From an uncultured Selenomonadaceae bacterium (GTDB lineage Bacteria > Bacillota > Negativicutes > Selenomonadales > Selenomonadaceae), in contig CAJOPN010000166.1 of the NCBI GenBank assembly GCA_905236285.1, forward strand, positions 1 to 43,096: DNA of 43,096 bases. The letters run 5' to 3'. The position numbers and the translations under genes are program-made. The notes beneath the pieces are model-generated. The model worked only from the letters and a program-made list of their open reading frames with translations. It had not been told where the DNA came from and did no database searches. Shown here piece after piece: positions 18,549-24,535 of this stretch (positions are counted from its first letter, which is position 1; every line of letters starts with the position of its first letter).

Positions 18549-19802
18549 TTAAAGAACTCTTTGCAATTCGTTAATTGTCGTTAGACCTGCAGCAACTTTT
18601 TGAAGACCGTCATCAAACATCGTCACGAATTTTTTTGAAAGTGCAAGCCGTCGAATATCATCAACATCATTAAAATTCAAAATTATTTTACGAAAATCTT
18701 CATCAATCTGCAAAATTTCATGTATTGCAATTCGTCCACTGAATCCCGTATGACGACATTTTTCACAGCCGACACCTTTATAAATTTTCATTCCTTCTTT
18801 AAAATATTTTCCAAAAATTTCAGCGTCGATTGAATTTTTGTCGACTTCGTAACTTTGTCGGCAATGAGGACAAATTTTTCTTACAAGACGTTGAGACATA
18901 ACTCCGTTTAAAGTCGCCGCAAGAAGATAAGGTTCAACATTCATTTCAAGCAATCGAAATATCGCGCTGCAACTGTCTTTTGCGTGCAAGGTCGTCAAAA
19001 TTAAATGTCCCGTTAATGCTGCTCTTATTGCAATCTGTGCAGTTTCGTTGTCTCGTGCCTCACCGACCATTATTATATTGCAATCCATTCTCAGCATTGA
19101 ACGAAGTCCGCTTGAAAAATTTAATCCGACTTTTTCATTTACTTCCATTTGATTTATTCCGTCAACAAATTGTTCAATCGGATCTTCAAGCGTCATTATA
19201 TGTTGTTCTCCCGTGTTTCGTTCGCGAAGTGCTGCATAAAGTGAAGTCGATTTTCCCGAATTCATCGGACCTGTAACAATGAACATTCCTGACGACAAAT
19301 TTATCAAACGTCTGAAAATTTTTTCTGTCTCCTCATTCATTCCGAGTTCGGAAATATTTTTGAGCTTCTCTCCGACATCCATCAATCTTATTACGAGATT
19401 TTCGCCGTATTTGATTGGAATCGACGCTACACGCATATCAATTTTTTTGCCGTTGAAATCAAAATCAATATGTCCGTCGAGAGGTATAAAATGTTTCGTC
19501 GTGTCCATTCCTGCCATTATTTTTAATCGTGCCGTGAATGTCGGAATTATTGCCGAATCAAGCGGCTTATGCAATTCACACAAATCGCCGTCAAGTCTGT
19601 AACGTATTCGTAAATTATTTTTCTGCGGCTCTATGTGAATATCGGTTGCCTGACTTTCAGCCGCCGTATTCAAAATTAAATTCACCAATCGAACTATCGG
19701 CGCATTTTCAAATGTCTGCACAGAATGACTTATATTATAAATAACTTGCCGCGATAATTTAAAAATCGTGTCGTCCAAATTTTTTTGATTATTGCCATCC
19801 AT
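18549..19802 (-). CDS. GspE/PulE-type secretion/pilus ATPase, N-terminal domain absent
   Basis: ATDIHIEPQKNNLRIRYRLDG, Walker A GPMNSGKSTSLYAAL, LRMDCNIIMVGEARDNETAQIAIRAALTGHLILTTLHA, two CxxC pairs. Confidence 0.92.
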   Translation of the reverse strand: MDGNNQKNLDDTIFKLSRQVIYNISHSVQTFENAPIVRLVNLILNTAAESQATDIHIEPQKNNLRIRYRLDGDLCELHKPLDSAIIPTFTARLKIMAGMDTTKHFIPLDGHIDFDFNGKKIDMRVASIPIKYGENLVIRLMDVGEKLKNISELGMNEETEKIFRRLINLSSGMFIVTGPMNSGKSTSLYAALRERNTGEQHIMTLEDPIEQFVDGINQMEVNEKVGLNFSSGLRSMLRMDCNIIMVGEARDNETAQIAIRAALTGHLILTTLHAKDSCSAIFRLLEMNVEPYLLAATLNGVMSQRLVRKICPHCRQSYEVDKNSIDAEIFGKYFKEGMKIYKGVGCEKCRHTGFSGRIAIHEILQIDEDFRKIILNFNDVDDIRRLALSKKFVTMFDDGLQKVAAGLTTINELQRVL

Positions 19803-21945
19803 AATTTTTTTTCATGTACCTTTTCATTTTTTCAATTCGGTTTTCCGTATCAATTCCATTATTCTGATTAATTTTAATTCTTGAAATTTTATTTGTGATA
19901 ACTTCTTTTATTAAATATGAATCGTTTTTACATTCAATATATTTGTCGCCGAATATAAAAATTCTTCCGTAATCATCGAAATTTTTTATTTTTGCATGAA
20001 TTGCTTTTATAAACGGCTGATAAGATGATTTGGCTCGTTTCAAATTTTCAAGCACAACAAATTCATAAGTTTTATTTGAATCATACCAATAATATTTTCC
20101 ATTGAATTTTTTCGGTCTGAAATCTTCATATTTTACGAAATAATAATTCCAATCGAAAATTGATTCAGCCTCACATTTTTTTATGTACTTATCAATAATT
20201 TCTTCCTTCAAATATTTATCAGTAAAATTTTGAGTTCTCGACAACAAATTTTTCAAAATTTTTTTTGTATCATCGAAGCCGAGTGATGAACTGTGATGAA
20301 AAAGATTTTGCCAAGAAATTTCTTTTTGAGAACCATATTGAAATCTGTTGTAATTATCCTGTTGGCAATAATCTCCATCTATAGACAAAAGTGCACAATT
20401 TATTAAATCGTAATTGCAATTAAACAACGAAATAAATCTTTCAAAAAAATTTTGATTTTCAAGACCGACAATATCAATTTGACCGTAAAGCAGTTTATGA
20501 TCTTCAAGTTCAAAAAGTAATTCTGACTCATTCGGATTTTTTTCAGTCCATATAAGTTTTGATTTTTCTTCCTTACGTTGATAACTGTTGAAACCACCGG
20601 ATTTAACTTCAATATCAATTTCGCCTTCGATGATAATTTTTTCGACTTGATTTACAAATGCATTCATATCCTCTTCTCTTATGTCAAATTCCGAATTGTT
20701 GATTAAATTGTTAATTATTCGTATTCGACGGCGAAAATCTTTATCGTCAATTTTATTTTTATTGAGCAGATATTTTTGAAAAGCATAGAGCATTAAAAAA
20801 TCTCTCAACGGAAATCTTTCTCTCCGCAGACAATCTTTAAAATAATTTGCGTTGTCAGTCAAAATTTTATCGGCGACATGTGATTCTGTCGTGACATAAT
20901 CATCAAAAAATTTATCAATCATCTTATGATTTTGAATTTCACACCAGCAATCAAAATATTTTTCAAAAAGTTCAATGTTTTCCTTTTTATAAATTATATT
21001 AAAGTCAAAATTTGAAAGAGAATTTTCGTAACGAATGACATTGCAAATAAATCGAAAATAATTTAAAAATGAATCGTCAATAACGTAAGGACTGCCGTTT
21101 TTAATATTTTTGTCCCGACAATTCCAGAGCATATCGGTCCAGTCAATGTCAATTTTTTTGCTGATACGTTCGGTTGTGCCGACATCAATTTTTGAATTTT
21201 CTTCAAGCTGAGAAATTTTATCGATAAATTCCGCCTTCAAATTTTCAAAATCCGTCAAAGGTTTCCCGCGTGAATTCATTTTTATATATAAATCGTCAGT
21301 CAAACCCATGTCTTCTATCGGCAAAAAATAAAATGAAATTAAACCACTCTGTAATTTCTTCCATAAATCTTTTTCATACTTAAATTTATCATCAATCGCA
21401 TCGAGCATGACGAGCATTGAACTTACAGTAGGATCATCTTTCCAAGAGAGAGGAAACCAGGCTTGATTTATTATATCTTCGGACAAATTTTTTTTAAATG
21501 ACGGCTTGAATTTTTCATCAAATAATTTTTCACAAAAATGTCTTGCAGTATAACGCGTATCATATGAAAAATTTTTCAAAAAATTGAAATCTATCAATTC
21601 ATTAGGATTTTCAAATTCAAATTTTCTGTAAGCATACCAATGAAGTAAAAATAAAGTCGTCAAACGTTGCTGACCGTCAAGCGGAATCATCACACCTTTG
21701 TTGTTAATGTCGCCGTAAACGAGATCGAGCGTCAAAGGTTCATTTTTATTGATGGATTCAAAGAGTGCCTTCAAAAATTTTTCGCGAATGACTTTAATTT
21801 TTTTGGTCTGTCTTCCTTGAGCATAATCACGTTGAATTTTCGGAATGATAATTTTTTCGATATTTAAATTTTTTGTGCCGAAACTTTTTTTAAATATTTC
21901 ACTAAAAGTTATCGGCTCTAAACGAGTTTTAATTTGATCCGCCAT
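19789..21945 (-). CDS. DUF262-domain protein (GmrS/ParB-like NTPase fold), no recognisable HNH
   Basis: IIPKIQRDYAQGR and PLDGQQRLTTLFLLHWYAYR in the N-terminal DUF262 domain. Confidence 0.9.
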   Translation of the reverse strand: MADQIKTRLEPITFSEIFKKSFGTKNLNIEKIIIPKIQRDYAQGRQTKKIKVIREKFLKALFESINKNEPLTLDLVYGDINNKGVMIPLDGQQRLTTLFLLHWYAYRKFEFENPNELIDFNFLKNFSYDTRYTARHFCEKLFDEKFKPSFKKNLSEDIINQAWFPLSWKDDPTVSSMLVMLDAIDDKFKYEKDLWKKLQSGLISFYFLPIEDMGLTDDLYIKMNSRGKPLTDFENLKAEFIDKISQLEENSKIDVGTTERISKKIDIDWTDMLWNCRDKNIKNGSPYVIDDSFLNYFRFICNVIRYENSLSNFDFNIIYKKENIELFEKYFDCWCEIQNHKMIDKFFDDYVTTESHVADKILTDNANYFKDCLRRERFPLRDFLMLYAFQKYLLNKNKIDDKDFRRRIRIINNLINNSEFDIREEDMNAFVNQVEKIIIEGEIDIEVKSGGFNSYQRKEEKSKLIWTEKNPNESELLFELEDHKLLYGQIDIVGLENQNFFERFISLFNCNYDLINCALLSIDGDYCQQDNYNRFQYGSQKEISWQNLFHHSSSLGFDDTKKILKNLLSRTQNFTDKYLKEEIIDKYIKKCEAESIFDWNYYFVKYEDFRPKKFNGKYYWYDSNKTYEFVVLENLKRAKSSYQPFIKAIHAKIKNFDDYGRIFIFGDKYIECKNDSYLIKEVITNKISRIKINQNNGIDTENRIEKMKRYMKKNYGWQ

Positions 21946-21964
21946 TAAATTTTCCTCCGCTTTG

Positions 21965-23665
21965 TCAATTCAAATAACATTTCAATACGGCTTTAATTTC
22001 TTTGATGTATTCTTTACGATCGTCTTGGCTCCAAAAATGAATTTGATTTTTTTCCGAAGGAGTATAATATTTCAAAAAAATCATTTTAGTGGCGAACGGA
22101 ATAAATTTGCCGTGTTTATCCATATCAATAATAAGATTACGTTTGACATCGAAAGTTGAATTACTTAACGCCGCATTTTTTCCGCAATCCAAAAGTGCAA
22201 GATTGGAAACTGAATTTATATAATCGCCTGTGTCGCCGTCTTCCGACAAAATTTTGACGATTCTCTCCTGCAACGGATTAAAATTAATTTCTTCAATTTT
22301 ACTTCGATTCAAAATTTTTTCAACGTCATTGATTAAATTTAAATGATTGCCTTCGATTGATTTAATTGATTTTAAATGATCTTCCAACCATTTACGCCAT
22401 TGCTCTTGTTTTTTGAGTGATTTAGATTGTTTGGCATGAATGTGTTCCAAAGACCAATCAACTTTGTCTTTTCCGAAAAATTTAAATTTGCTGAACGGAA
22501 ACCATTGAGTATTTTCACCGTTGCGTCTGACTGATTCGACATTGAAAAGCAAAAGCAGTTTAAATATTGTCTCGTAATCTTCTTCGTAATTTAAATCTTC
22601 AAGGTCTTTCGGCGACTCAATACTTTTTTTGATTTGTTCATTCAAAATTTTTAAAAATTCTTCTTTCGTCTTGCCTTTGGATTCTTTGTAAATTTCTAAA
22701 AGTGTTTTGGTTCTCGATGCAATCAAATAACCGATTTTATGATAAAATTCGTGATCGTTGAACCAATCTTTCAATATCAAAAATGTATGTTGAATATCTT
22801 CTTTCCAAATTTTATTTAAATCCTTTGAACTTCGCAATTTATCAATTTCAAAGAACGTAAAATTTTTTTCAGATTCATTAATTTTTTTCTCAGAGATTAA
22901 ATCAAGTACCAGATTAATTTTTGTTTGATATGATTCAGAGAAATTATTGGTCAAAAAATACCAAAGTGATTTATTATGAAGTTCTCTTTCAATATTGTCC
23001 CATTGAAAAGCAATTTCTTCTTGATGAGCAGCTCCATTGCCGGCAAAAAACATTGCTTTAACCAATTCGGCACTCGTCAGTTCAATTTTTCCGCTGTTGA
23101 GACGTTTGAAAAGTTCTATTGCATCTTTATTTTGATTGTCGTCAGATTCTATTTCGTACCAAATAATTTTAACATTGAAAGTAAAATATTCGTCGATTCT
23201 GTTCATTATGGCTTTTGGTCTTTCGGAAAACCATTTTTCGATAACGTCATAAGCGTTTGCCATAAAATAAAAATCAATATATTCATCGCGACGATCATTT
23301 CTGTTTTTTTCATCATGAATATTTTCAAGAAAATTTTGCGATTCGTTACGCGTTTCATATTCAATAGAAAAATTCGGCTCGTCAAAATCTCGTTTTTCAT
23401 GCATATATTTACGAATGAGATAAATTGTCGTGAGTCGCTGCTGACCGTCGATCAATTCATACTTATTATTTTGATTTTTTTGAACGACAATCGGCTGAAG
23501 ACAATAATTTTTATTGCAGAGTTCATTTAAAGAATAAATATCATCAAGCATACGCTCAATTTCCGATTCGCTCCAACGATAACCGCGTTGATAAGACGGA
23601 ATAATAAAATTGCCTTCAATTTCGTAAACCAATTTGGTTTGAATATTAACGTTTTTGATTGCCAT
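21965..23665 (-). CDS. DUF262 plus DUF1524/HNH-type protein (GmrSD/SspE-like architecture)
   Basis: IPSYQRGYRW, LIDGQQRLTTIYLIRKY; C-terminal LEHIHAK...NLALLDCGKNAALSNSTFDVKRNLI HNH-like signature. Confidence 0.92.
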   Translation of the reverse strand: MAIKNVNIQTKLVYEIEGNFIIPSYQRGYRWSESEIERMLDDIYSLNELCNKNYCLQPIVVQKNQNNKYELIDGQQRLTTIYLIRKYMHEKRDFDEPNFSIEYETRNESQNFLENIHDEKNRNDRRDEYIDFYFMANAYDVIEKWFSERPKAIMNRIDEYFTFNVKIIWYEIESDDNQNKDAIELFKRLNSGKIELTSAELVKAMFFAGNGAAHQEEIAFQWDNIERELHNKSLWYFLTNNFSESYQTKINLVLDLISEKKINESEKNFTFFEIDKLRSSKDLNKIWKEDIQHTFLILKDWFNDHEFYHKIGYLIASRTKTLLEIYKESKGKTKEEFLKILNEQIKKSIESPKDLEDLNYEEDYETIFKLLLLFNVESVRRNGENTQWFPFSKFKFFGKDKVDWSLEHIHAKQSKSLKKQEQWRKWLEDHLKSIKSIEGNHLNLINDVEKILNRSKIEEINFNPLQERIVKILSEDGDTGDYINSVSNLALLDCGKNAALSNSTFDVKRNLIIDMDKHGKFIPFATKMIFLKYYTPSEKNQIHFWSQDDRKEYIKEIKAVLKCYLN

Positions 23666-23671
23666 TTTAAA

Positions 23672-24535
23672 TTATTCGCCTTCTTCGTATTTAAGCGCGT
23701 CTTCAAGAGCTTTAAGCATAACTTTTTCATCAGGTTCAATTCCCGTGAAAAGTCTGAAGGCCTCCATTCCTTGATGAAGTAACATTTTCATTCCATTAAT
23801 TATCGGATAACCCAACTCTTCAGCTTTAGCCAAAAATTTTGTCTTTGCCGGAGAATAAATTAAATCGTAAACAAGAGCACCTTCAGGCAAAAGTGAAATA
23901 TCAACCGGCGGCATTTCGTCAATATCGGGAGTCATTCCGAGCGGTGTCGTATTTATTAAAATATCTGCATGTTTCATTTGCGTTTTAAATTCTTCCGTCT
24001 CCCAATGAAAAATTTCAACTGATTCAAAAATTTTAAAGTCTTCAATCATTGATTTATATTTTTCGGGATTTCTTACACCGACGGCAATATGATTTGCATT
24101 TCGTTTGCAAAGTCCCCAGATAACCGAACGAGCAGCACCTCCTGCACCGAGCACGACTGCATTGCAATCATTCGGCATGAAATCAACTTCATTAAGAGAT
24201 TTTACGAAACCGATAACGTCTGTATTATAGCCGGTAAGTATTCCGCCGTCATTGACTACCGTATTTACTGCGCCTATCATTTTTGCATCTGTATCAAGTG
24301 AATCGAGCAGAGAAGTTATCATTGTCTTGAGAGGAATAGTTACATTCCAGCCGCGAAAATTCAATGCACGAAGTCCATCGACTGCAAAAATTAATTTTCC
24401 TTTTTGAATCGGAATTGCAATATAAGAATAATCAAGATTTGCCGCATTGATTGCCGCCATTTGCATTACAGGCGAAAGTGTATGACCTATCGGATAGCCG
24501 ATTATTCCAAGATTTTTCGTTGCTACTTTTATCAT
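23672..24535 (-). CDS. aroE: Shikimate dehydrogenase
   Basis: GYPIGHTLSPVMQMAAINA, NVTIPLKTMI, VLGAGGAARSVIWGL, NTTPLGMTP, YDLIYSPAKTKFL. Confidence 0.97.
   Translation of the reverse strand: MIKVATKNLGIIGYPIGHTLSPVMQMAAINAANLDYSYIAIPIQKGKLIFAVDGLRALNFRGWNVTIPLKTMITSLLDSLDTDAKMIGAVNTVVNDGGILTGYNTDVIGFVKSLNEVDFMPNDCNAVVLGAGGAARSVIWGLCKRNANHIAVGVRNPEKYKSMIEDFKIFESVEIFHWETEEFKTQMKHADILINTTPLGMTPDIDEMPPVDISLLPEGALVYDLIYSPAKTKFLAKAEELGYPIINGMKMLLHQGMEAFRLFTGIEPDEKVMLKALEDALKYEEGE

Follow-up and report, generated by a model that had tools for sequence, protein, structure and literature searches.

The closest described relatives of the locus analysed here, a pair of adjacent genes (A and B) in a 43,096-nucleotide stretch of DNA ("the window") from an uncultured Selenomonadaceae-like bacterium (assembly GCA_905236285.1, contig CAJOPN010000166.1; a draft genome, 81% complete in 199 contigs), are two systems of Vibrio cholerae. 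GrwAB, from the genomic island VSP-II and described in Nature Microbiology in 2025, has GrwA (DUF262 plus DUF1524) encoded by its first gene and GrwB (DUF262 plus unknown domains) by its second (PMC12137116). It is a modification-dependent restriction system that needs both proteins, the single genes having lost protection; protection also disappears in DGQQR mutants of either protein and in H431, N521 or N530 mutants (PMC12137116). Its targets are phages with sugar-modified hydroxymethylcytosine or 7-deazaguanine, escapers map to dpdA, and it is present in about 1% of genomes (PMC12137116). TgvAB (Journal of Bacteriology, 2024) has the gene order tgvA (no HNH) then tgvB (HNH), likewise needs both proteins and acts on hypermodified phages (PMC11411939); outside DUF262, GrwB differs from TgvA (PMC12137116). 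How GmrSD-family enzymes recognize modified DNA, and why some of them need a second DUF262 protein, are open questions according to both papers (PMC12137116, PMC11411939).

The window pair is almost certainly a well-supported member of the GrwAB kind, a system type published in 2025, and not a new system. As in GrwAB, an HNH-bearing DUF262 protein comes first and is followed by a second DUF262 protein with an unmatched C-terminus, the pair is mobile and widespread, and QR, DGQQR and FxxxN motifs are present (the third motif of B is YxxxN in the window). Residues H431, N521 and N530 of GrwA (PMC12137116) correspond to H408, N488 and N497 of A, with an Asn-Asn spacing of 9 in both. Unlike the GrwAB genomic island, the window pair lies inside an aroE-gspE gene run. 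TgvAB also consists of two DUF262 proteins, only one of which has DUF1524, and in V. cholerae it sits in a type I restriction-modification (RM) operon, as one of the pairs found here does (L183, below), but its gene order is reversed, the HNH gene being first in the window and in all loci of the family. The published His-Asn spacing of TgvB (31 residues versus 80 in A) is a weak criterion; we tried to tell GrwA from TgvB by this spacing and set it aside, since it varies widely among the A homologues (the Asn-Asn spacing is near constant). The sequence-only reading of this DNA had named placement of the genes in an already fully described system as something that would refute it. That applies in part: the pair matches the published GrwAB type (PMC12137116), and a two-gene system of this sort was therefore known already. 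The new findings are comparative: A and B occur naturally fused, they are obligately paired, B has an invariant E/K/E cluster, and its C-terminal module, which could be a target reader, is hypervariable.

We give a probability of roughly 0.78 to the view that the pair is mobile and encodes a GrwAB-type type IV (modification-dependent) restriction system made of two proteins. Proteins A and B would be obligate partners in a complex, in which both DUF262 domains would bind and hydrolyse nucleoside triphosphates (NTPs), activation would be gated on recognition of hypermodified phage DNA, and the His-Me (DUF1524) domain of A would then cut that DNA; B would contribute a second DUF262 protomer and a helical scaffold carrying a variable C-terminal module. 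That the proteins form a complex, hydrolyse NTP, recognize modified DNA and cut it is carried over by analogy with GrwAB and the GmrSD family, and the most likely arrangement is a hetero-complex of A and B whose His-Me domain is licensed by the NTP-using DUF262 domains. The sequence-only reading had proposed a nucleotide-dependent anti-phage system of two subunits, the HNH protein being its effector, and this is the best-supported reading. Several points weigh against it. The likeness to GrwAB is one of order, architecture, motifs and catalytic residues as published, and the evidence on the system is comparative; DUF262 is also present in proteins with other roles; a Foldseek search against the PDB missed even the DUF262 domain of B; and the genes immediately around the pair in this genome are housekeeping genes and do not form a defence island.

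The A-B pair is a real, obligate unit. When 84,980 species genomes were scanned with the B alignment alone and A was then sought with an A profile around the best 80 loci, A preceded B directly, on the same strand, in 72 of them. In four others (L042, L062, L063 and L088) A is present too, and the mechanically assigned B start overlaps it beyond the limit of the script; at L045 A is a decayed remnant and B is frameshifted, and L049 and L107 end at a contig edge. The A-B order is kept in all 78 assessable genome loci, and A is also upstream of B in 17/17 plasmid records and 12/12 viral contigs. A lack of conserved co-occurrence of the two genes had been named beforehand as something that would refute the sequence-only reading, and these counts did not refute it. 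The hosts include Bacillota, Bacteroidota, Actinomycetota, Pseudomonadota, Campylobacterota, Spirochaetota and others, a recurrence in the same order that is far beyond chance. On a Paenarthrobacter sp. AT5 plasmid (L029, 3004-7503) an IS3 insertion sequence (IS) element lies between A and B; the related plasmid L020 keeps the genes adjacent. In a Victivallis metagenome-assembled genome (L099, 1878-5663, plus strand) the two are naturally fused in a single open reading frame (ORF) of 1262 amino acids, a ready-made construct for studying the A-B complex; its true start is probably about 120 residues into the ORF. Pairwise distances among A proteins and among B proteins are strongly correlated (Mantel r = 0.81 for 81 pairs; the highest of 999 permutations gave 0.19), and part of this correlation is shared inheritance, as expected of a unit. 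The fusion and the co-divergence together support an A-B complex.

Both frames of the window pair (A, 566 amino acids, upstream; B, 718 amino acids, downstream) are free of internal stops. The ORF coordinates and the Pfam matches bear out the description of two minus-strand genes 19 bp apart, each with DUF262, and homology between A and B is confined to that domain. Protein A matches Pfam GmrSD_N/DUF262 with 125 bits (E = 5e-36; cut-off 33.2 bits) and GmrSD_C/DUF1524 with 21.9 bits (E = 1.8e-4), slightly below the cut-off of 23 bits. What secures the nuclease assignment is that E407, H408, N488 and N497 are invariant in 85/85 homologues. In the AlphaFold model of A (pLDDT 87) H408 ends strand 404-408, N488 precedes strand 489-493 and N497 is in helix 494-500, a modelled β-β-α placement like that of the His-Me finger reported in TgvB (PMC11411939). 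Thus the DUF1524/HNH-like C-terminus that had been read from the upstream gene holds up, by its invariant residues and by the model. The motifs Q26R27, D73-R77 and F186xxxN190 are kept in the homologues. Foldseek against the PDB gave SspE alone below E = 0.001 (7drs, E = 1.1e-5, and 7drr). The best PADLOC profile for A is HEC-06 (2.9e-24), which matches 43/43 homologues; its best-scoring stretch on A spans little beyond part of DUF262 (18-84), and no PADLOC 2.0 profile matches the B of the window.

Protein B matches Pfam GmrSD_N/DUF262 with 73.7 bits (E = 2.8e-20), and its motifs Q38R39 and D90-R94 are conserved, as is the third (Y in 85 and F in 5 of 91 homologues). In its confident AlphaFold model (pLDDT 88.9) the DUF262 domain is followed by a long all-helical region and then by a C-terminal segment rich in strands. 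Outside DUF262, B has no match in Pfam, NCBIfam or PADLOC, and 45 aligned B homologues gave nothing there in Pfam except one stray match. The model matches no PDB fold at E<0.001, and its one match below 0.001 in BFVD is another DUF262 protein. On these searches a nuclease in the C-terminus of B was rejected, and the earlier failure to match this region to any nuclease is thereby borne out. Residues E460, K463 and E481 have zero entropy in a 46-member alignment, within a surrounding region that is poorly conserved, and in the wider set spanning phyla each of them, like G488, is present in 86/91 homologues; all lie in the helical region without known fold. The most variable part of B is residues 611-718, whose length ranges from 33 to 177 amino acids across the family. 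We infer that B is the specificity subunit, its variable C-terminal module most likely setting or extending target specificity, and the earlier suggestion of B as a sensor or regulator is plausible. A fuller proposal, in which B is the target-recognition subunit, a swappable module at about 611-718 reads the modifications of phage DNA, and E460/K463/E481 form an undescribed functional site, is tentative and on balance unlikely to be right in full; if it is true, this many-phylum family would cover modifications beyond those tested for GrwAB. The window pair itself is an ordinary member, and the interest lies in the comparative set and in those features of B that can be tested. With about 100 pairs from many phyla, a fusion, near-invariant residues and a hypervariable module, the role of B is directly accessible to mutation and domain swaps.

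A alone has the complete GmrSD/SspE architecture, and the single-chain enzymes Eco94GmrSD, which works alone, and BrxU have the same DUF262-linker-DUF1524 plan, so A might be a self-sufficient type IV enzyme of this sort with B as a helper that shields it from phage inhibitors such as IPI*, an anti-inhibitor role having been suggested for TgvA (PMC11411939). We consider this improbable. Those enzymes are one protein without B, unlike the window pair with its obligate partner; an A of this subfamily without B was not found (the 13 plasmid records in which at least 80% of A is covered are all paired); and GrwA (PMC12137116) and TgvB (PMC11411939) gave no protection on their own, in assays that do not exclude an inhibitor.

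It is very unlikely that the pair instead acts by abortive infection or as a toxin-like nuclease pair, with B restraining A until phage infection releases it and the cell dies, even though toxin-antitoxin pairs, too, typically form tight operons of obligate partners and GrwAB-protected cultures later filament and lyse (PMC12137116). Gating as in SspE, by phosphorothioate (PT) marks on host DNA and not by phage hypermodification, would fit with SspE being the nearest solved structure to A by fold and among the nearest by sequence. However, that fold match is at the level of the family, SspE has no B-type partner, and no dnd or ssp genes were seen near the pair. PT gating was rejected because the genome, 81% complete, yielded no DndC homologue, and we regard it as having hardly any chance of being correct.

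A V. cholerae copy of GrwAB was sought by several routes, and no V. cholerae WASA copy turned up in the collections. A genome scan with B as a single sequence found nothing; the B alignment scan reached many phyla, with no Vibrio among the best 80 loci; a search of the whole gammaproteobacterial class gave just two further members and no V. cholerae copy; the distant search of E. coli and the phage search for a V. cholerae-type copy had no match; a Vibrio 16S probe located no Vibrio genome, and none of the 12 viral-contig pairs is identifiable as Vibrio. Recognition of an orthologue by the exact GrwA/GrwB residue numbers (R81, H431, N521, N530 and R86) was rejected, as no homologue has all of them. 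The features of the window pair and its flanks are collected in the following table.

Features of the A-B pair and flanking genes (positions in the window)
Feature	Position	Strand	Remarks
Gene A (GrwA-like)	21965..23665	-	DUF262/GmrSD_N NTPase-sensor domain ~14-207, helical linker, C-terminal DUF1524/His-Me nuclease ~400-566 (domain roles predicted)
Gene B (GrwB-like)	19789..21945	-	DUF262/GmrSD_N 28-240, all-helical middle ~250-610, hypervariable strand-rich C-terminal module ~611-718
A DGQQR motif, residues 73-77	23435..23449	-	kept in 83/83 homologues covering the motif
A His-Me nuclease catalytic His codon H408, in WSLEHIHA	22442..22444	-	85/85 homologues; model strand 404-408
A His-Me nuclease N488-x8-N497 (NLALLDCGKN)	22175..22204	-	each Asn in 85/85 homologues
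B DGQQR motif, residues 90-94	21664..21678	-	91/91 homologues apart from one G->C
B E460/K463/E481/G488 cluster, helical region	20482..20568	-	each residue in 86/91 homologues
aroE (shikimate dehydrogenase), left host flank	23672..24535	-	stop 6 bp before A start
gspE/pilB-like secretion ATPase, right host flank	18549..19802	-	start overlaps B end by 14 bp

The pair has been inserted cleanly between aroE and the gspE-like gene. In sister species (G015, G014, G425, G016, G020 and others) aroE directly adjoins gspE, an empty site, and the gspE of the host is not truncated (417 amino acids; the open frames of relatives are mostly about 390-420). B is present in three other genomes of the genus (G005, G011 and G015), and G002 has an A cut by the contig end; in G015 the pair is elsewhere, beside a gatB-like gene. 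The GC content of A (0.31) and B (0.29) is below that of the neighbouring genes (0.36-0.42), while GC at third codon positions is not distinct. Taken together, the empty sites, the different location in G015 and the lower GC indicate horizontal gain of the pair. Sister genome G424 holds a different ORF of 233 amino acids between aroE and gspE (L171, 1387-2085, plus strand), so this junction may accept insertions repeatedly. The genome of the window has two further DUF262 loci (C109:19388-20014 and C148:255-641), of which the C109 copy has an internal TAA and looks broken. A radical-SAM protein encoded near the pair shares 65% identity with its counterpart in a named Selenomonadaceae MAG, against about 39-40% with clostridial counterparts, which makes a host within or close to Selenomonadaceae probable.

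Pairs elsewhere are carried on plasmids or lie close to IS elements and recombinases, to QatA or to a type I methyltransferase, and some relatives have theirs in defence neighbourhoods. At L180 the pair is beside HsdM/HsdS, and at L183 (2-12865, plus strand) a type I RM operon has a pair of the GrwAB-like type embedded between its HsdS and HsdR. In Bacteroidota a gene for a DEDDh 3'-5' exonuclease (RNase_T) is often directly upstream of A (L040, L059, L071, L077, L078 and L080, and the plasmid loci L023 and L027), and in several of these loci a WYL-domain regulator precedes the exonuclease gene; such loci are possibly a four-gene variant.
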